Assembly (NCBI GenBank): GCA_948469375.1
Contig: CAOKLO010000033.1
Location: 1-37,643 of the forward strand
Direction of reading: 5' to 3'
DNA: 37,643 bases
Source: an uncultured bacterium
GTDB lineage: Bacteria > Bacillota > Clostridia > Oscillospirales > Oscillospiraceae
Under the pieces are notes generated by a model that worked only from the letters and a program-made list of their open reading frames with translations, ran no database searches and was not told the DNA's origin. Position 1 is the first letter of the stretch, and each line of letters begins with the position of its first letter. This document shows positions 7,029 through 24,610 of the stretch, piece after piece. The position numbers and the translations under genes are program-made.

Positions 7029-8021
7029 ATGAAACGCATTTTACTGCTCACCACCGGGGGCACCATCGCCTCCCGGCTCACCGACGAGGGGCTGGCCCCC
7101 GGCCTGAACGGCGCGGCCCTGTCCCACTACCTGGGCGGCCTGCCGGACAGCTACAATCTCACCGTCCGGGATATCCTCCACCTGGACTCGTCCAACATCC
7201 AGCCTGAGGAATGGCGGCTCATCGCCCGCAGCGTCTACGGCGCCCGGAAGGATTTTGACGGCATCGTGGTCTCCCACGGCACCGACACCATGGCCTACAC
7301 CGCCTCGGTGCTCAGCTATATGGTGCGGAACATCCCCGTCCCCGTGGTGCTCACCGGGGCCCAGCTGCCCATCGAGCACCCCCTCACCGACGGATTGGAC
7401 AACCTGCGCACCGCCTTTGCTATGGCGGCGTCGGGGCATCCGGGGGTGTTTCTGGCCTTCGACCGCCGGGTCATGCTGGGGTGCCGGGCCGTCAAGACCC
7501 ACACCACCGCCTTCGGGGCCTTTGACAGCGTGAACTGGCCTTTGGTGGCCCAGGTAAACGGCGCGGGGCTGACCATCCGGGAGGAGGCCATCCCCAGCGT
7601 GTCCGGCCCCTGCGTCCTGCGGGACAAGCTGTGTGAGGCGGTGTTCCTCATCAAGCTGACCCCGGGGCTGGACCCGGAAATTTTTGATATGCTGCTGCGG
7701 ATGCACTACCGGGGGGTTGTGATCGAGGCCTTCGGTGCAGGCGGGCTCCACTTCATCCGCCGCAACCTCATCGAAAAGCTCCACGCCGCCGCCCAGTCCG
7801 GAATGGCCGTGGTGGTGTGCAGCCAATGCCTGTACGAGAGCAGCAATTTTTCCCTCTATCAGGCGGGGCAGAAGGCGCTGGCGGAGGGGGTCATCCAGGG
7901 CTACGACACGACCACCGAGGCCGCCGTCACAAAGCTGATGTGGGCCCTGGGCCAGACCGGCAGTCTGGAGGAGGTGCGGGCCCTGTTCTCCCAAAGTCTG
8001 GCCGGAGAGCGGGGCGTTTGA
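7029..8021 (+). CDS. ansA: L-asparaginase (type I, AnsA-like)
   Basis: A 330-aa asparaginase converting L-asparagine to aspartate and ammonia. The first catalytic signature TTGGTIAS is at residues 8-15 and the second, HGTDTMAYTAS, at 83-93. These contain the two catalytic threonines, with K/D partners in the family pattern. There is no signal peptide, so it is probably the cytoplasmic type I enzyme. ATG at 7029 follows CCAAGGAGGCGCCCGTCC. The frame is open far upstream (from 6123), but that stretch lies antisense to the flavoprotein and includes the promoter. It ends at a bidirectional terminator. It opposes the AsnA synthetase encoded 5.4 kb away. Confidence 0.92.
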   Translation: MKRILLLTTGGTIASRLTDEGLAPGLNGAALSHYLGGLPDSYNLTVRDILHLDSSNIQPEEWRLIARSVYGARKDFDGIVVSHGTDTMAYTASVLSYMVRNIPVPVVLTGAQLPIEHPLTDGLDNLRTAFAMAASGHPGVFLAFDRRVMLGCRAVKTHTTAFGAFDSVNWPLVAQVNGAGLTIREEAIPSVSGPCVLRDKLCEAVFLIKLTPGLDPEIFDMLLRMHYRGVVIEAFGAGGLHFIRRNLIEKLHAAAQSGMAVVVCSQCLYESSNFSLYQAGQKALAEGVIQGYDTTTEAAVTKLMWALGQTGSLEEVRALFSQSLAGERGV

Positions 8022-8520: not shown

Positions 8521-9546
8521 TCACAAAACGGAGCGGAGAAGCTCCAAATCCTCCCGGGTGGTGGACCAGCTGGTGCAAAAGCGCGCCACTGTTTGATTCG
8601 GCCCCCGCTTCTCCCAGAAGCTGAACGCCACCTGCTTTTTCAGCTCCTCCGCCCGCTGATCGTCCAGAATGACGAACTGCTGGTTGGTGGGGGACTCCAG
8701 GTAGAACGCCACCCCCTTCTCACGGAGGATGGTTTTCAGCTCCTCCGCCGTCTCAATGGCGCGGCGGCTCAGCTCAAAGTAAAGGCCGTCGGTGAACAGC
8801 GCGTCGAACTGCACCCCCAGCAGACGGCCCTTGGCCAGCAGGGCCCCCCGCTTTTTCACGGCGTTGACGAAGTGGGCCGGGCGGTTGTGACCGGTGAACA
8901 CCACCGCCTCCCCGCACAGCGCCCCCACCTTGGTGCCGCCGATGTAGAACACGTGGCACAGGCGGGCGATATCCTCCAGGGTCAGCTCCGCCTCCCGGCT
9001 CATCAGGCCGTAGCCCAGCCGGGCGCCGTCCAGGTACAGGGGCATATCGTACTTCCTGCACACCCGGGACAGGCCCTCCAGCTCCGCCTTGGTGTAGAGG
9101 GTCCCGAATTCCGTGGGGTGAGAGATGTACACCATTCCCGGAAACACCATGTGCTCGTGGTTCTCATCGGCGTAAAAGCCTCGGACAAACTCCTCCAGCA
9201 CCTCCGCGTCCAGCTTTCCGTCCCGCTGGGGCAGCTCCAGCACCTTGTGTCCGGCGTACTCGATGGCTCCGGCCTCATGGGTGCTGACGTGGCCGGTTTT
9301 GGCCGCCACTACGCCCTGATAGTCCCGGAGCAGGGTGGAGATGACGATCTGGTTGGTCTGGGTGCCGCCGGTGAGCAGCTCCACCTGGGCCTGGGGACAG
9401 CCGCAGGCGGCGCGGATTTTCTCCTTGGCGCCGGCGCAATAGGGGTCCTCGCCGTAGCCGGGGAGAGGCTCCAGATTGGTTTCCATCAGACGCCTGAGCA
9501 CCAGGGGATGGGCCCCCGCAATATAATCACTGGCAAATGAGACCAT
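8521..9546 (-). CDS. Threonine aldolase family PLP enzyme
   Basis: A 341-aa fold-type I PLP enzyme of the beta-eliminating lyase/threonine aldolase family, which cleaves L-threonine or allo-threonine to glycine and acetaldehyde. Seen are TGGTQTN (59-65, PLP phosphate region), H90-E91 in the stacking position, LDGAR at 172-176, and the likely Schiff-base lysine K206 in YIGGTKVG. ATG at 9546 is chosen over the upstream frame start (9639), since the preceding 31 codons are basic and non-conserved-looking; AAGGAG lies 16 nt upstream, a longish spacing. No metabolic partner is adjacent. Confidence 0.87.
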   Translation of the reverse strand: MVSFASDYIAGAHPLVLRRLMETNLEPLPGYGEDPYCAGAKEKIRAACGCPQAQVELLTGGTQTNQIVISTLLRDYQGVVAAKTGHVSTHEAGAIEYAGHKVLELPQRDGKLDAEVLEEFVRGFYADENHEHMVFPGMVYISHPTEFGTLYTKAELEGLSRVCRKYDMPLYLDGARLGYGLMSREAELTLEDIARLCHVFYIGGTKVGALCGEAVVFTGHNRPAHFVNAVKKRGALLAKGRLLGVQFDALFTDGLYFELSRRAIETAEELKTILREKGVAFYLESPTNQQFVILDDQRAEELKKQVAFSFWEKRGPNQTVARFCTSWSTTREDLELLRSVL

Positions 9547-9654
9547 AAATTCCGCCCGCTTTCTCCTTGATTTCCAGTAAATTATAGCACGTTTTTTTCG
9601 GAAAGGAAATACTGTCTTTTTTCGCTGTCCTGACCGCATTTTTTGTTCAAGACC

Positions 9655-9683
9655 TTGCCAACTGGGAAAAAAAGCGGTAAAAT
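9655..9683 (+). promoter_or_regulatory. Promoter of the leucyl aminopeptidase gene
   Basis: TTGCCA (9655-9660), 17-bp spacer, TAAAAT (9678-9683), about 50 bp upstream of the ATG. Confidence 0.6.
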
Positions 9684-9733
9684 GGCCCTGAAATATGAGG
9701 CGGCTCCGCCGTCTGTCAGGAGATGGAAATGCT

Positions 9734-11104
9734 ATGGTAGAGGTAAGGCTTTGGAATCAGGAGATTGCCGACTGGCGGTTTGCCATGGAGCGCGGCGGGG
9801 ACTGCGCCCCCCTGACCCTGCGGGCGGTGGGGCAGGACCACGCCCTGGTGGTAAACCTGGGAGAGGACGCCACGGCGGAGACCGCCCGCCGGGCCGCCGC
9901 CAAGGCGGTGAGGGCCGTCCGGGAGCTGGGGGCCCAATCCCTGCTGCTGGACGTGACCGGGATAAAGCGGGCATTGGGCGGGGAGGGCCTGGCCGCCGCA
10001 GCCCAAGGGGCGGAGCTGGCCTGCTACCAGCAGGAGAGCTGGAAAAAGCAGGAGGACAAGCCCTTCACCCTGTATATCGCCGGGACCGAGGGGCTGGACG
10101 CTGAAGCGGTTTTGCGGCGGACCGGCGTGGTGACCCGCGCCGTGCTTCGCGCCCGGGATATGACCAATCGCCCTGTCAATATGCTCACCCCGGCGCTTAT
10201 GGCCAAGACGATAGCCAAGGCGGCGGAAAAGGTGGGCGTTGAGGTGGAGGTTCTGCGGAAAAAGCAGACCCGCGCCCTGGGCATGGGAGCCTACCACGCC
10301 GTGGGCGACAGCGCCGCCCATTCCCCCCGCCTCATCGTCCTGCGCTGGAAGGGCGGCAGGGAGGAGGACGCCCCCGCCGTCCTGGTGGGCAAGGGCGTGT
10401 GCTTCGACACCGGCGGGTACAATCTGAAATCCGGCGCGGGCCTGAAAACCATGCGCTCCGATATGGCGGGGGCGGCGGCGGTGTACGCCGTGGTGCTGGC
10501 CCTGGCGGAGAACAAGGTCCCCGTCAACGTGACGGCGGTGATCCCGGCGGTGGAGAACCGTATCTCCCCTGAGAGCATGGTTCCTGGAGATGTGGTCCGC
10601 TCCATGTCCGGCAAGACCATCCAGATCAACAACACCGACGCCGAGGGGCGGCTCATCCTGGCCGACGCCATCACCTACGCCATTGAAAAGGAGAACGCTG
10701 CCCGGGTGGTGGACATCGCCACCCTCACCGGGGCCTGCGCCAACACCCTGGGCCACCTTACCGCGGGGCTGGTGAGCAACAACGACGCGTTCTGTAACGA
10801 CCTGCTGAACGCCGCCGCCCGCACCGGCGAGCAGTATTGGCGCTTCCCCACCTTTCCGGAGTACCACAAGATGATCGAAAGCCCCGTGGCCGACCTGTCC
10901 AACCAGTCCAACGACGGCTGCGGCGCCATCACGGCGGGGCTGTTTCTGGGGGCCTTTGCCGAGGACGTGCCCTGGATTCATATGGACATCGCGGGCACCG
11001 CCTGGACCGACCGGGCCCGCCGGGAATACCAGACCGTGGGCGCCACCGGCGCGGGGGTGACCACCCTGTACCAGTTGTGCGCGGACTTGGCGGATAAGGG
11101 CTGA
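9734..11104 (+). CDS. pepA: Leucyl aminopeptidase (M17, PepA-like)
   Basis: A 456-aa cytosolic metallo-aminopeptidase that removes N-terminal residues from peptides. The M17 signature NTDAEGRL is at 300-307. Metal and active-site residues follow the family order: K220 and D225 (GKGVCFDTGGYNLK), K232, D243, D302, E304 and R306. Residues 1-140 form the variable N-terminal macro-like domain. ATG at 9734 with AGGAG 11 nt upstream is preferred to the in-frame start at 9695. The response regulator follows after a 29-bp gap on the same strand and is probably co-transcribed. Confidence 0.93.
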   Translation: MVEVRLWNQEIADWRFAMERGGDCAPLTLRAVGQDHALVVNLGEDATAETARRAAAKAVRAVRELGAQSLLLDVTGIKRALGGEGLAAAAQGAELACYQQESWKKQEDKPFTLYIAGTEGLDAEAVLRRTGVVTRAVLRARDMTNRPVNMLTPALMAKTIAKAAEKVGVEVEVLRKKQTRALGMGAYHAVGDSAAHSPRLIVLRWKGGREEDAPAVLVGKGVCFDTGGYNLKSGAGLKTMRSDMAGAAAVYAVVLALAENKVPVNVTAVIPAVENRISPESMVPGDVVRSMSGKTIQINNTDAEGRLILADAITYAIEKENAARVVDIATLTGACANTLGHLTAGLVSNNDAFCNDLLNAAARTGEQYWRFPTFPEYHKMIESPVADLSNQSNDGCGAITAGLFLGAFAEDVPWIHMDIAGTAWTDRARREYQTVGATGAGVTTLYQLCADLADKG

Positions 11105-11133
11105 GCGCCTGCAATTTTAAGGAGGGAACCGAC

Positions 11134-11808
11134 CTGAATATTCTCATCATCGAGGACGACGTGCCTCTGGCCGACTCCCTTCGGGCCCTGCTGGAGGGCA
11201 GGGGCTACCAGGTGGAGAACGCCTACGACGGCGAGGCCGGGGTGCAGTACGCCCTGCTGGGGGTGTACGACCTTATTATTCTGGACGTGATGCTGCCCAA
11301 GCTGGACGGTCGGCAGGCGGCCAGGCAGCTGCGCTCCCAAAAATGCGCCGCCCCCATCCTGATGCTCACCGCCCGCGACCAGCTGGAGGACCGGGTGGAG
11401 GGCTTGAATGCCGGAGCGGACTACTACCTGCCCAAGCCCTTCGACACCCGGGAGCTGCTGGCCTGCGTGGGCGCGCTGCTGCGCCGCCAGGGCGGGCAGG
11501 TGGACCAGATTACCTTCGGAAACACGGTGCTGGACCTGGACTCGTCCACGCTGGCCTGCGGGGAGAAATGGGTGCGGCTGTCCGCCCGGGAGTTCGACGT
11601 GATGCGCTGTTTCATGCAGGCCAAGGGCAAAAACCTGTCCAAGGAGACCATTCTGGCCCGGGTGTGGGGGTTCGACTCCAACGCGGTGGAGAATCATGTG
11701 GAGGTCTACGTGGGCTTTCTGCGGAAAAAGCTGGCCAGCATCGGCTCCAACGTGCGCATTGAGGCGGTGCGGCGGCTGGGGTATCACCTGGAGGCGGACG
11801 AAGCATAA
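11134..11808 (+). CDS. OmpR/PhoB-family response regulator with CTG start
   Basis: A 224-aa two-component response regulator. The receiver domain has acidic residues E7-D8-D9, phosphoacceptor D51 (LIILDVMLP), T79 and K101 (YYLPKPF). A winged-helix OmpR domain (about 125-220) ends in RRLGYHLEADEA. The frame contains no ATG/GTG/TTG that would keep the first beta strand and acidic pocket; the first is GTG at 11161. CTG at 11134 gives the family-typical start xNILIIEDD, and AAGGAGGG lies 8 nt upstream, so CTG is proposed as the initiator. No histidine kinase is present within the window. The last 47 bp of the gene recur at 13181-13227. Confidence 0.88.
   Translation: MNILIIEDDVPLADSLRALLEGRGYQVENAYDGEAGVQYALLGVYDLIILDVMLPKLDGRQAARQLRSQKCAAPILMLTARDQLEDRVEGLNAGADYYLPKPFDTRELLACVGALLRRQGGQVDQITFGNTVLDLDSSTLACGEKWVRLSAREFDVMRCFMQAKGKNLSKETILARVWGFDSNAVENHVEVYVGFLRKKLASIGSNVRIEAVRRLGYHLEADEA
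11762..11808 (+). repeat. Left copy of 47-bp duplication (3' end of response regulator gene)
   Basis: This copy encodes the C-terminus of the response regulator through its TAA. The same 47 bp occurs at 13181-13227 with two mismatches (11800 g/a, 11804 c/t); the first 38 bp are identical. The repeats bracket an AT-rich island with a 1419-bp offset. Confidence 0.95.
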
Positions 11809-11811
11809 GAA

Positions 11812-11842
11812 ACAGGGCCACCGAAAAGGTGGCCCTGTCTTT
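11812..11842 (+). terminator. Terminator of the response regulator gene
   Basis: Stem ACAGGGCCACC/GGTGGCCCTGT with loop GAAAA, then CTTTT, immediately after the stop. Confidence 0.88.
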
Positions 11843-11869
11843 TACCAACAAGTTTATCGTAATAATGGC

Positions 11870-12568
11870 TTAATTTTGACAATTTAAATCTTCCCAACTC
11901 TGTGCCGCCATTTGTGTTCCATAAGAAAAACCAATGGAGCCGTAGCCTGGTATAGAAAAAGTTGGTGAAGTAGTAATAGTTGAGTGTCCATACTCGGCAT
12001 AAGCAGATAAGTCTTGGCGAGTATAGTTGTGGTAAAGGGTAAAGATGCCATATCCTGATTTGCCCCAGAAATAGTTGTTTTGCTGCGTCATTTTGAACTT
12101 GAATCCACCACCATTTGCGGTTGGTCCATTATTGGGAACATAAGTGGCTGGCATGGAGATATCTGGCTCGCTGCCATAGATATGGGTGTAGGTCACATAG
12201 GATAATTTTCCGTTGAGGGTCCAGTCATTCCAACTCACAGCGATAATGTCAGTTGTCATAATCAAAGGTTCGCCCGACCAATTAAAATTATAACATAAGC
12301 GTGCGTTTGTTTGATTTTCCGATGATGACCAAGTAACATAGTCAGCTTCGAGGGTAAATTCGAGGGTCGCAGCAAGCGCACGGATCTGATCTTCGGTTCC
12401 GGTATAGTTTTTAAAAATATCAATCTGTTCATCAGAGTATCCTAAACGCGTGAGAGCTTCTTTGTCCAAATCTTTGAACTGAAGAAGATGTTCGTTATAC
12501 GTCTCCTTGACATTTTCAATCTTCGCAATATCGGTTGCCGTATAACCCTGTATGGATAATTCTTCAAT
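11870..12568 (-). pseudogene. 5'-truncated gene for a secreted-type protein
   Basis: An open frame of 232 codons follows a TGA at 12569-12571, with no ATG/GTG start and no ribosome binding site; the first possible start, TTG at 12469, falls inside the fold. The N-terminal part (GYTATDIAKIENVKETY ... LGYSDEQIDIFKNYTGTEDQ) looks like a helical segment with an internal repeat. The remainder is rich in Tyr, Trp, Asn, Ser and Thr, as in extracellular beta proteins. I would expect a signal peptide upstream, and none exists in any frame. It is therefore read as a remnant that lost its 5' end. It is AT-rich, like the XRE gene upstream and unlike the surrounding chromosome. The function is unknown. 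Confidence 0.65.
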
Positions 12569-12598
12569 TCATATTTGTATATTTTTTGAATCAAAAGA

Positions 12599-13060
12599 CT
12601 ATCCACTGTCCGAATCTTTTGCCTGAATGTATCTTGAAAGTAGATATATACACAGCCCAATGTATCCAACTAGCAAAATCAACCCCCAATAAACAACCAG
12701 AATAAACTCTTCTTTTGTACCTCCTCCAACTATTGATTTCAAGAGTGGTATCGCAAATAGGCCACCACCAAAAACGAGTAATATAGAATATAGAATGACA
12801 GATAAAAGAATAAACTTAAATGATAGTGGTGACTTACTCTCATGCTTAGTACCATCATATGAATGTGGATATATCAAACTTTCAATCTCTATACCCAATT
12901 CCCGTGCTAATTGTTCCAGCGTCTTTATATCAGGAAACGATGATCCATTTTCCCAACTTGACAACGTTTGTGTTGTGATAGACAGCCTTTCCGCAAGTTG
13001 AGCCTGATCTAAACCCTTATTCAGTCGTTGGATTTTGATATTCGTCGCTATATCTGCCAT
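12599..13060 (-). CDS. XRE-family regulator with two C-terminal membrane helices
   Basis: A 153-aa protein. A Cro/CI-type HTH at about 5-60 (IKIQRLNKGLDQAQLAERL, then TQTLSSWENGSSFPDIKTL) is followed by a linker and two transmembrane helices (about 80-103 and 118-140). Membrane-tethered XRE regulators of this layout are common in Firmicutes; their signals are mostly unknown. ATG at 13060 follows CTAGGAGTGATTGA. The promoter at 13082-13110 overlaps a palindrome that may be its own operator. It sits in the AT-rich island between the two 47-bp repeats and 30 bp upstream of the truncated secreted-type gene, possibly its former target. Confidence 0.88.
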   Translation of the reverse strand: MADIATNIKIQRLNKGLDQAQLAERLSITTQTLSSWENGSSFPDIKTLEQLARELGIEIESLIYPHSYDGTKHESKSPLSFKFILLSVILYSILLVFGGGLFAIPLLKSIVGGGTKEEFILVVYWGLILLVGYIGLCIYLLSRYIQAKDSDSG

Positions 13061-13081
13061 TCAATCACTCCTAGCACTTTT

Positions 13082-13110
13082 ATTTTAGCATAACATACAA
13101 AGGATGTCAA
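13082..13110 (-). promoter_or_regulatory. Promoter of the membrane XRE gene
   Basis: Minus strand TTGACA (13105-13110), 17-bp spacer, TAAAAT (13082-13087) with an upstream TGC extended -10. Confidence 0.75.
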
Positions 13111-13121
13111 TTGTTTTGACA
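13105..13121. promoter_or_regulatory. Palindrome TGTCAA-N5-TTGACA, candidate XRE operator
   Basis: Perfect 6-bp arms 17 bp end to end, overlapping the -35 box of the XRE gene. The position favours autorepression by the gene product; this is inference. Confidence 0.45.
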
Positions 13122-13180
13122 TTAAATGTAAGCGCAATGCATAACAGGAGCCGTAGGACTGCTCGCTAAAATAAGTTCAA

Positions 13181-13227
13181 AGGCGGTGCGGCGGCTGGGG
13201 TATCACCTGGAGGCGGACAAAGTATAA
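13181..13227 (+). repeat. Right copy of 47-bp duplication
   Basis: Repeats 11762-11808 and would encode the C-terminus ...YHLEADKV followed by TAA in place of DEA. It is not attached to an upstream reading frame here. Its own strong terminator follows directly, as expected if it were the original 3' end of the response regulator gene displaced by an insertion. Confidence 0.95.
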
Positions 13228-13230
13228 AAA

Positions 13231-13260
13231 GGGCCCCGCTCGAACGAGCGGGGCCCTTTT
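13231..13260. terminator. Strong bidirectional terminator
   Basis: Stem GGGCCCCGCTCG/CGAGCGGGGCCC with TTTT on the right and AAAA on the left. It follows the right repeat copy and also the minus-strand 57-aa gene. Confidence 0.85.
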
Positions 13261-13261
13261 G

Positions 13262-13435
13262 TCAATATCGCAGGATAAAATACACCACATATACCCAGCT
13301 CATCAGCCCGTGGACGATGGCCCAGCCCACGGAGCGCCAGGTGGTGTAGCTGATTACCATGGCCAGGGCGCTGCCGAAGCTGATGCCCGCCTTGGCCGCG
13401 CTGCCGGCGTTCAGGCTCCCTTTTTTATCCTCCAC
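13262..13435 (-). CDS. 57-aa small membrane protein
   Basis: A 57-residue ORF starting at GTG 13435, preceded by AAGGGGGGTGGAATT. The N-terminus is polar (MEDKKGSLNAGSAAKAG). Two hydrophobic stretches follow, at about 17-30 and 36-55, the second ending in VYVVYFILRY. The protein would be membrane-embedded. It ends at the terminator at 13231-13260 and starts 13 bp after the asnA stop, so it is probably co-transcribed with asnA. The function is unknown, and the link to AsnA rests on position only. Confidence 0.65.
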   Translation of the reverse strand: MEDKKGSLNAGSAAKAGISFGSALAMVISYTTWRSVGWAIVHGLMSWVYVVYFILRY

Positions 13436-13448
13436 AATTCCACCCCCC

Positions 13449-14462
13449 TTACAGCAGAATGACCCCCGCCTCCCGGCACGCCTCGATGGTATGGGGGTCC
13501 CAGATGGACGCCTGCACCTCGCCGATGTGGGCCTTGCCCAAGAGGTACATGGACACCCGGCTCTGGCCGATGCCGCCGCCGATGGTCAGGGGCAGCTCTC
13601 CCGCCAGCAGGGCGCGGTGGAAGGGCAGCTCCCGGCGCTCGTCGTGGCCGGAGATGGACAGCTGTTTGTCCAGGGACTCCGGGGACACCCGGATGCCCAT
13701 GGAGGAGATCTCAAAGGCGCGCCCCAGCAGGGCGTTCCACACCAGGATGTCCCCGTTCAGCGACCAGTCGTCGTAGTCCGGGGCCCGTCCATCGTGGGAC
13801 TTACCGGACTTCAGCGCCCCGCCGATGCCCATGAGGAAGGTGGTGGGGTGGTCCTTCACCCAGGCGTCCTCCCGCTCCTTGGGGGACAGCTCGGGCCACA
13901 TATCCTCCAGCTCCTGGGCGGTGACGAAGGATGCCTCCCGGTCAATGAGGGGCAGGGTGGTGAGCTGGGGATACACCGAGCGCAAAGTCTGCTGAGTGTT
14001 GGCCAAAGCGCTGACGATGGTGGTTACGACACCCTTTAAGTAGTCCACGTTGCGGTCCCGGGGGGCGATGACTTTCTCCCAGTCCCACTGGTCCACGTAG
14101 ACGGAGTGGAGATTGTCCAGCTCCTCGTCCCGGCGGATGGCGTTCATGTCGGTGTACAGCCCCTCGCCCACAGAAAACTGGTAGCGGTGCAGGGCCATCC
14201 GCTTCCACTTGGCCAGGGAGTGGACCACCTGGGCGTCCCGGCCCGCGTCGGGCACGTCGAAGGACACGGCCCGCTCCACGCCGTTCAAATCGTCGTTCAA
14301 TCCGGTGGACGCCTCCACGAACAGTGGGGCGGACACCCGGCGCAGATTGAGCGCGCCGCCCAGGTCGTCCTCAAAGAGGCGCTTGAGCAGACCGATGGCC
14401 TTCTGGGTGTCGTACAGGTTCAACAGGGGAGCGTACCCCTGAGGAATGACGGTGGTAAGCAT
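13449..14462 (-). CDS. asnA: Aspartate--ammonia ligase (AsnA)
   Basis: A 337-aa ammonia-dependent asparagine synthetase, which makes asparagine from aspartate, ammonia and ATP via an aspartyl-adenylate. The fold is class II aminoacyl-tRNA synthetase-like. Family-typical stretches are VSAPLFVEASTGLNDDLNG near the start, VVHSLAKWKRMAL, GLYTDMNAIRRDE, HSVYVDQWDWE, and the C-terminal motif-3-like LTIGGGIGQSRVSMYLL. The length equals the E. coli enzyme to within a few residues. ATG at 14462 follows AAGGAGTAAAGCCT. A TATAAT box lies at 14498-14503. It acts in opposition to the asparaginase at 7029-8021. Confidence 0.96.
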   Translation of the reverse strand: MLTTVIPQGYAPLLNLYDTQKAIGLLKRLFEDDLGGALNLRRVSAPLFVEASTGLNDDLNGVERAVSFDVPDAGRDAQVVHSLAKWKRMALHRYQFSVGEGLYTDMNAIRRDEELDNLHSVYVDQWDWEKVIAPRDRNVDYLKGVVTTIVSALANTQQTLRSVYPQLTTLPLIDREASFVTAQELEDMWPELSPKEREDAWVKDHPTTFLMGIGGALKSGKSHDGRAPDYDDWSLNGDILVWNALLGRAFEISSMGIRVSPESLDKQLSISGHDERRELPFHRALLAGELPLTIGGGIGQSRVSMYLLGKAHIGEVQASIWDPHTIEACREAGVILL

Positions 14463-14497
14463 AGGCTTTACTCCTTTACTCCGTTGGAATATCAGAT

Positions 14498-14503
14498 ATT
14501 ATA
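14498..14503 (-). promoter_or_regulatory. -10 box of the asnA promoter
   Basis: Perfect TATAAT on the minus strand, 36 bp upstream of the asnA ATG. The hexamer 17 bp further upstream (TTGCAT) matches TTGACA only in its first half. Confidence 0.5.
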
Positions 14504-14532
14504 CAACTGCTCAGAAAAAAATGCAAATTGAA

Positions 14533-14561
14533 TTGTCTTTTCCGATTCGATATGGTATAAT
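14533..14561 (+). promoter_or_regulatory. Promoter of the phosphoglucomutase gene
   Basis: TTGTCT (14533-14538), 17-bp spacer, TATAAT (14556-14561) with a TGG extended -10. The leader is about 95 nt. Confidence 0.75.
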
Positions 14562-14663
14562 TTCCATATATCGCCGTGGCAGCTCCCGGGATTTCCGGCA
14601 AACTGCCCATCGGCGCCGCGTTTTTACACGTTAACAATCTTACATATCAGGAGGAATGGACCA

Positions 14664-16388
14664 ATGGACTACAAAAAAGCGTATGAGCAGTGGCTGAACT
14701 CCCCCGTCCTGTCTGAGGCGGAAAAGGCGGAGCTGACCGCCATCGCCGGGGACGAGAAGGAGATCGAGTCCCGCTTCTTCTCCCAGCTGGAGTTTGGCAC
14801 CGCCGGACTGCGCGGCACCATGGGCGTGGGCCTGTATCGTATGAACATCCACGTCATCCGCCATGCCACCCAGGCCTTCGCCAACGTCATTTTGAACGAG
14901 GGCCCCGAGGCCGTCAAGAAGGGCGTCGCCATCTGCTTCGACTGCCGGAACAACTCCGACGTGTTCGCCAAAGAGGCCGCCTGCATTATGGCTGCGGCGG
15001 GCATCCCCGTGCGGCTATTCGAGTCCCTGCGCCCCACCCCCGAGCTGTCCTTCGCCATCCGGGAGTACGGCTGCATCGCGGGCATCAATATCACCGCCAG
15101 CCACAACCCCAAGGAGTACAACGGCTATAAAGTCTACTGGTCCGACGGCGCCCAGCTCCCTCCCAACCACGCCGACCAGGTGGCCAAGATCATGCGGGAG
15201 TCCGGCGTATTCGATGTGAAGGTGGCCGACTACGACAAGGCGGTGGCCGGCGGCCTTATCACCATTATGGGCGCCGAGACCGACGAGAAGTTCCTGAAAA
15301 ACGTCATGGAGCAGGTCAACGACCAGGCGGCGGTGGACGCGGTGGCGGACACCTTCAAAATGGTGTACACCCCCTTCCACGGCACCGGCCACAAGCTCAT
15401 CCCCGAGGCCCTCAAGCGGCTGGGTATGAAGCACGTCATCTGCGTCCCCGAGCAGATGGTCATCGACGGCAACTTCCCCACCGTGGCCTCTCCTAACCCG
15501 GAAAATCCCGAGGGCTTCTATCTGGCTGTGGACCTGGCCAACAAGGAGGGCGCGGACTTCATCCTGGGCTCCGACCCCGACGCCGACCGGGTGGGCCTGA
15601 TGGTGCGCACCTCCGACGGCGAGTTCAAGGTGCTCACCGGCAACCAGACCGGCGTGCTGCTGCTGGACTACCTGATCGGCGCCAAGCAGCGTACCGGCAA
15701 GATGCCTAAGAACCCTGTGGCCCTCAAGACCATCGTCACCACCGAGATGGCCCGCAAGGTGGCCGAGGTCAACGGCCTGAAGTGCTTCGACACCTTTACC
15801 GGCTTTAAGTTCCTGGCCCAGAAGAAGGACCAACTGGAGGGCTCTGGCGAGGGCAATGTGATTATGTCCTATGAGGAGAGCTACGGTTATATGCTGGGCG
15901 ACTACGTGCGCGACAAGGACGCCGTCACTGCCGCCGTAGCTATGACCGAGATGGCTGCCTACTATGCGGGCAAGGGCATGACCCTGTACGACGCTCTGCT
16001 GGCCCTGTACGAGAAGTACGGCAACTACGGCGAGCGCACCATGAATCTGGTGATGCCCGGTCTGGACGGTTTGAAGAAGATGGCCGACCTGATGGCCAAT
16101 CTCCGCGCCAACCCGCCCAAGGAGATCGGCGGCGAGACTGTCAAGACCTGGAAGGACTACAAAGACGGGTCCGTGGTGGACGCCGCCTCCGGCGCCGAGA
16201 GCACCATGGAGCTGTCCGGCTCCAACGTGCTGCGCTACGAGCTGGCCGACGGCACGTCGGTGATCGTGCGGCCCTCCGGCACTGAGCCCAAGGTGAAGGT
16301 GTACATCCTGGCTCAGGGCGTCAGCCAGGCCGACTGCGCCGACAAGGTGGCCCGGTATTCTGCCTGGGCGGAGGGGCTGAAAAACTAA
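14664..16388 (+). CDS. pgcA: Alpha-phosphoglucomutase / phospho-sugar mutase
   Basis: A 574-aa enzyme of the alpha-D-phosphohexomutase superfamily that interconverts glucose-1-phosphate and glucose-6-phosphate. The phosphoserine loop is TASHNP with S146, the metal loop SDPDADR is at 303-309, the sugar loop SYEESYGYM is near residue 400, and the phosphate loop RPSGTEPK starts at R536. The length (about 570) and the N-terminal FGTAGLRG are those of the PgcA/PGM2-like group rather than GlmM. ATG at 14664 follows ATCAGGAGGAATGGACCA. It links GlgP-derived glucose-1-phosphate to glycolysis. The gene name is by similarity to B. subtilis PgcA. Confidence 0.93.
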   Translation: MDYKKAYEQWLNSPVLSEAEKAELTAIAGDEKEIESRFFSQLEFGTAGLRGTMGVGLYRMNIHVIRHATQAFANVILNEGPEAVKKGVAICFDCRNNSDVFAKEAACIMAAAGIPVRLFESLRPTPELSFAIREYGCIAGINITASHNPKEYNGYKVYWSDGAQLPPNHADQVAKIMRESGVFDVKVADYDKAVAGGLITIMGAETDEKFLKNVMEQVNDQAAVDAVADTFKMVYTPFHGTGHKLIPEALKRLGMKHVICVPEQMVIDGNFPTVASPNPENPEGFYLAVDLANKEGADFILGSDPDADRVGLMVRTSDGEFKVLTGNQTGVLLLDYLIGAKQRTGKMPKNPVALKTIVTTEMARKVAEVNGLKCFDTFTGFKFLAQKKDQLEGSGEGNVIMSYEESYGYMLGDYVRDKDAVTAAVAMTEMAAYYAGKGMTLYDALLALYEKYGNYGERTMNLVMPGLDGLKKMADLMANLRANPPKEIGGETVKTWKDYKDGSVVDAASGAESTMELSGSNVLRYELADGTSVIVRPSGTEPKVKVYILAQGVSQADCADKVARYSAWAEGLKN

Positions 16389-24526: not shown

Positions 24527-24549
24527 CACAATCAAAAGTTCTTTTTCGG

Positions 24550-24610
24550 TTCCTTTTTCTTTCAAGGAAAAGGAAGGCCTCTTTTGGTTCTTTTCTCTGC
24601 GAGAAAAGAG
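24550..24610. repeat. Two further stem-loops, psuG 3' side
   Basis: TTCCTTTTTCTT/AAGGAAAAGGAA (24550-24561 with 24564-24575) and TTCTTTTCTC/GAGAAAAGAG (24588-24597 with 24601-24610). The latter resembles the stem-loop at 23234-23265. On the minus strand they follow psuG and may also act as 3' stabilisers or terminators. Confidence 0.5.

Follow-up and report, generated by a model that had tools for sequence, protein, structure and literature searches.

Comparison with related genomes indicates that an AT-rich stretch of 1372 bp in this DNA is an insertion into the 3' end of a response regulator (RR) gene. The reading that we favour, with a probability of about 0.6, is that a decayed, CIME-like integrative element lacking an integrase was inserted into the RR 3' end via circular DNA. 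The window, i.e. the whole stretch of 37,643 nucleotides that was analysed, is contig C33 of G000, a draft genome of 3.68 Mb in 143 contigs (91.6% complete, 6.24% estimated contamination). The features to which the argument refers are the following:

11161..11808, plus strand: OmpR/PhoB-type response regulator gene, the target of the insertion (Pfam Response_reg 1.5e-23, Trans_reg_C 2.2e-18; orthologues in congeners); the listed start is a GTG, and the true one may lie a few codons upstream
11762..11808, plus strand: 5' copy of the 47-bp repeat, attL-like, frame intact, ending at the stop codon
11809..13180, unstranded: inserted AT-rich DNA, 1372 bp, missing from the corresponding site in G039, G040 and G036
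11810..11840, unstranded: terminator-like hairpin brought by the insert, not seen at insert-free sites
11873..12565, minus strand: remnant of a secreted-protein gene without start and signal peptide (about 51 codons); 55% identity to the intact 281-aa homologue in L052; in-frame stops upstream
12599..13060, minus strand: XRE-family regulator, 153 aa, frame intact (Pfam HTH_3 8.7e-14); 41% identity to the XRE regulator beside the intact secreted gene in L052
13082..13110, minus strand: promoter-like site before the XRE gene, TTGACA-17-TAAAAT, 11/12, the best of 5 sites against a shuffle mean of 3.9 sites
13181..13227, plus strand: 3' (attR-like) copy of the repeat, the native RR end in its displaced position, now outside any gene and followed by a terminator as in G040 and G039
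13227..13260, unstranded: native terminator-like hairpin of the RR gene, common to G039 and G040

The last 47 bp of the RR gene recur at 13181-13227 with 45 of 47 positions identical, and the copies begin with 38 bp (11762-11799) of perfect, unbroken identity. The second copy was recovered in the search of the own genome with E=1.6e-14; no third copy is present in the window, where the best other place agrees in at most 26 of the 47 positions. The 1372 bp between the copies have a GC content of 39.1%, against 65.9% and 61.9% in flanking stretches of similar size. Both the duplication of the RR end with two mismatches and the AT-rich character of the DNA in between had been described in an earlier note on this sequence, and our data agree with it on both counts. 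Direct repeats at the borders, here ending at the stop codon, correspond to the attL and attR sites expected of a CIME, and we infer that the two copies are recombination sites and that the integration was site-specific. A search for an inverted repeat or palindrome in the core gave nothing better than chance (1313 of 2000 shuffles were as good).

Among 25 RR loci of congeners (L004-L028), a match to the asnA region follows the RR gene in three, namely in G039 (L004), G036 (L005) and G040 (L012), and the synteny of these three with the window was upheld by longer stretches. The other 22 loci, of which L028 stops inside the RR gene, show no asnA match in the stretch of about 1.5 kb that was covered and therefore have no bearing on the question of insertion. 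Each of the three relatives has a single RR end followed by a terminator-like hairpin. The earlier note had proposed an insertion into the RR 3' end and expected an empty site to consist of one copy, the native terminator and a gene for a 57-aa protein. The three relatives do carry the site without the insert, although the expected arrangement is split between them: in G040 a terminator of the 13231-13260 type lies 1 bp past the RR stop codon with asnA beyond, but the 57-aa gene is absent, whereas G039 and G036 have the terminator (diverged in G036), the 57-aa gene and asnA, but with 94 and 133 bp of other DNA, respectively, between the RR end and the terminator. Thus only G040 has nothing else at this place. 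Since the site is found without the insert in three syntenic congeners, which is also what a CIME should show, the stretch is, judged by this comparison, an insertion. One could argue that the 3' copy, a clean fragment of an RR end, is what remains of a second full-length RR paralogue at 13181 whose 5' part was lost by deletion. However, the three syntenic relatives have one RR gene here, and a second RR end does not precede the native terminator in any of them; we regard such a loss as extremely improbable.

The hairpin at 13227-13260 is common to G039 and G040 and diverged in G036, which identifies the 3' copy as the native end of the gene (...EADKV). As this native hairpin lies beyond the 3' copy, the 5' copy (...EADEA) and the unrelated hairpin behind it came with the insert. 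The earlier proposal that the DKV end was displaced and the DEA end is new thus holds, and so does its observation of a terminator after each copy; that the hairpins terminate the RR transcripts is our reading. The terminator scan places both of them on the minus strand and gives 3 terminator-like sites against a shuffle mean of 1.7.

Two further observations concern the DNA behind the RR gene. A gene for a sensor-like membrane protein (by eye, probably the kinase of the RR) directly follows the RR gene in 11 or more of the 25 loci from congeners (L013, L014, L016-L020, L023, L025-L027); in the window and in the three insert-free relatives the RR gene has no such immediate neighbour. Additionally, a repeated intergenic element, TTCTTGAAAGAAAAAGGAACCGAAAAAGAACTTT, was found with at most 2 mismatches in 12 of the 42 genomes of the genus, G000 included, with 25 copies in G039, 13 in G040, 11 in G037 and 6 in G000. 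One copy lies in the window at 24535-24568, and one of the G039 copies (C6:71638-71671) lies no more than about 30 bp past the stop codon of the RR gene, in the 94-bp spacer.

Out to position 11811 the two copies differ at 11800 (G in the 5' copy, A in the 3' copy), 11804 (C and T) and 11809 (G and A, just past the stop codon). Position 11800 is G in G040, G039 and G036, as in the 5' copy, therefore the 3' copy is the altered one there; position 11804 varies among the relatives and the direction of change cannot be polarised. The pattern fits an RR end that no longer codes, though the changes are too few to prove much. At all three positions the 5' copy has G or C where the 3' copy has A or T, which resembles the drift of one sequence and could also be expected if cargo had been captured at a staggered break, with a fill-in of about 47-50 bp producing a long target-site duplication. 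Such an origin would account neither for the repeat ending at the stop codon nor for the hairpin that comes straight after it, and we consider it quite improbable.

The island holds an XRE regulator and a gene remnant, as had been noted earlier. The second half of the XRE protein looks membrane-spanning by eye. The remnant comprises 231 codons that align from residue 52 onwards with a 281-aa protein having a signal-peptide-like start; thus the truncation removed the head of the secreted gene. It matched no Pfam or NCBIfam family above the cut-off, and neither of the two island frames matched a transfer family. The structure model of the remnant (mean pLDDT 65.9) had no Foldseek match in the PDB at E<=0.001; the best 50 rows gave query TM-scores of 0.16-0.28 to beta-rich proteins of many kinds, leukocidin-type proteins included, and the best E of the sequence against the PDB was 0.04. 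The predicted model is too poor for a fold assignment and no function is drawn from it. Rfam gave 0 matches at gathering thresholds in 9000-15000.

An intact pair of these genes, with order and orientation unchanged, is found in Intestinimonas sp. (L069, NZ_JAPFEA010000121.1; within L062 of G338), a locus that is represented three times in our data (L052, L062, L069). The identities are 41% for the XRE regulator and 55% for the secreted protein. Unlike in the window, the secreted gene is intact there and the pair lies at another locus, beside a gene that is mnmE-like by eye; within about 600 bp of the pair no repeat of at least 11 bp was found flanking it. Homologues of the secreted protein are rare: they were found in 8 of 300 genomes of the family and, at E<=1e-8, in 6 of 394 genomes of the order, G000 being counted in both cases, and at 3 loci in the search of genome contigs. 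With regard to a derivation from an ICE or IME, searches of plasmids and phages gave no relative of the remnant, and none of 9 candidate stretches from IMG/VR was confirmed. The XRE regulator was found in only one of the 42 genomes of the genus, G000 itself (E<=1e-12), and in two IMG/VR loci matching residues 12-67 only. A tblastn search of 21 loci (14 distinct places, several loci extending only about 1.5 kb to each side) gave a good XRE match only at the Intestinimonas locus and one further match, in L063, limited to residues 4-78.

Repeats flanking the secreted gene were sought with 11-bp seeds in flanks of roughly 500-1000 bp each: G338, G125, G157 and G209 have none, and G003 and G273 have one 11-bp match each. 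At two other places the gene does lie between direct repeats. In Sedimentibacter (L070) the homologue is enclosed by copies of a repeat of about 255 bp (7458-7711 and 9213-9465, spacing 1755), which covers the beginning of an adjacent gene (AgrB-like by eye) together with the DNA upstream of it, and not a 3' end. In L071 the repeat is 50 bp long, 82% identical and promoter-like by eye (7349-7398 and 9076-9125, spacing 1727). The spacing in the window, 1419, is near these two, so that the secreted gene stands between direct repeats with a spacing of 1.4-1.76 kb at 3 of 9 places, the window included. No common sequence was seen in the three repeat pairs, and we take the likeness as unexplained and not as support.

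No recombinase was located in the island when the own genome was searched in six frames for PF00589 and PF07508. The insert is therefore free of integration and transfer genes, as a CIME would be, and has no recombinase gene of its own such as an autonomous ICE, IME or prophage should carry. The earlier statement that no recombinase is present is right for the island but not for the window, where a tyrosine recombinase domain lies at 1652-2212. This gene ends just before two tRNA-Ser genes on the minus strand (2357-2447 and 2483-2569), and the region 1025-2569 is probably the terminal part of a different integrated element that continues past the contig end. The recombinase load of G000 is high, with 29 PF00589 matches (28 above the cut-off) and 19 PF07508 matches, some of which may be contamination; serine recombinases (PF07508) were searched for in G000 only. 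Near 48 recombinase matches of G000 the best likeness to the core was 29/47, compared with 28/47 for the best shuffle. Among the matches listed for the nine congeners whose RR matches were best, none of the nine has PF00589 on the RR 3' side of the contig; those on the RR contigs of G024 and G037 are on the opposite side, at a distance of 28-56 kb.

The suggestion that the 38-bp core might recur as an attachment site was not borne out. With at most 3 mismatches the core pattern matched 9 of the 42 genomes of the genus, and a degenerate pattern matched 17 of 400 genomes of the family; in both searches G000 was matched twice and every other genome (8 and 16, respectively) once. As these patterns miss diverged RR ends, the probes reach only part of the genomes and most genomes are uninformative for reuse of the site. 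Two patterns of the core gave 0 matches each in IMG/VR, and an attP-like sequence was found neither there nor near the recombinase matches of G000. In ten stretches from nine genomes (L041-L050) the best place besides the RR end scored 25-30/47, which is a background level; the RR end of L047, being diverged, itself scores only 30/47, and L050 stops short of the RR end. Thus, of the site-specific type of insertion that had been suggested, the insertion and the rebuilt frame stand, while no recombinase, attP-like sequence or second occurrence was found. The RR 3' end might also be an unrecorded attachment site in gut Oscillospirales, at which a resident recombinase acts in trans on very small, integrase-less cassettes of about 1.4-1.7 kb (XRE plus secreted protein); we hold this to be improbable.

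The arrangement could have arisen as follows. A circular or circularised mobile DNA carrying a copy of the RR end (about 47 bp) and its own terminator would have integrated at the RR 3' end, since a single crossover between the copy on the circle and the chromosomal RR end yields this exact arrangement. The crossover would have fallen within the shared 38 bp, leaving the RR frame whole; it would have given the gene its new DEA end and pushed the native DKV end 1.4 kb downstream. The agent would most likely have been a site-specific recombinase, probably a tyrosine recombinase, that has since been lost or acts in trans; as neither a recombinase nor reuse of the site was found, it can only be inferred. 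In the decay that presumably followed, the secreted gene would have lost its head and the displaced RR end would have drifted, the XRE gene remaining.

One would argue that an integrase is not needed, and that homologous or homology-facilitated illegitimate recombination with a close-strain donor having the cargo downstream of its RR gene would give the identical structure. Specifically, one crossover within the RR gene combined with a chance join 47 bp before the RR end, or RecA-dependent integration of a circle through the short homology, is a fair rival: neither a recombinase nor a recurring site was found, and the RR end of the insert resembles another RR allele. However, the RR end of such a donor would have to match over 38 bp, including third codon positions at which all three insert-free relatives differ, and the same donor would need an unrelated terminator; no such donor appeared in the genus searches (42 genomes; 40 relatives, 25 of the genus). 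We therefore think this origin rather unlikely. A third possibility is that the assembler joined a 1.4-kb circle or a foreign contig that shares 38 bp with the RR gene, as 38 bp is the size of a short k-mer and G000 has the many contigs and the contamination given above. Yet the independent molecule would need an RR end with its own hairpin, i.e. it would be an excised element or its like, and the outer flanks are syntenic with the relatives, though synteny does not test the junctions. We give this artefact little credence.

The decayed element without an integrase is favoured because the stop codon marks the end of the repeat, as in some published 3'-end elements. The rebuilt frame, this position of the repeat and the hairpin supplied by the insert are features that an element adapted to the 3' ends of genes would, by analogy, be expected to show. 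The occurrence of the cargo pair elsewhere as a unit and the recombinase-rich genome speak for a CIME-like origin, whereas the lack of a recombinase, of core recurrence, of a core palindrome and of a repeat at the Intestinimonas pair speaks against it.

In the relevant passages of PMC5704250, CIMEs are elements left with att sites and cargo only, and those of PMC7563491 give classical CIMEs as cargo-only DNA of 1.2-13 kb that forms part of composite islands, with rpmG, rpsI, fda and rplL as the genes whose 3' ends are occupied. The streptococcal CIMEs, which derive from ICEs or IMEs, resemble our case by att-like repeats that flank them at a protein gene's 3' end, by cargo without integrase or transfer genes and by this size range. 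They differ in that our element is single, without a tandem ICE or IME within the window, has an RR gene as its target and has no known parent element. Tyrosine-integrase ICEs at the 3' ends of rplL, rpsI, rpmG, guaA and lysS likewise combine insertion into a gene end with repeats of 12-54 bp, according to the portion of PMC4701971 concerned with streptococcal 3'-end elements; the present insert lacks integrase and transfer genes, and its target is a transcription regulator and not one of those housekeeping genes. In the same portion some repeats are the exact gene end only and some extend into intergenic DNA, thus ending at the stop codon is common but not a rule. An RR gene does serve as an attB for a phage integrase in the section of PMC10865867 on mycobacteriophage Fionnbharth, although MSMEG_2807 is there a secondary site, used by a laboratory mutant in a mycobacterium.

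We found no report in the open-access literature of natural attachment at the 3' end of an RR gene, and the present case is a single, decayed instance. It makes a response regulator gene a further probable landing site at a gene 3' end, and the boundaries of the element stay readable even though little of an integrative element may be left. If active, the site would offer a landing place in gut bacteria that have been little studied.
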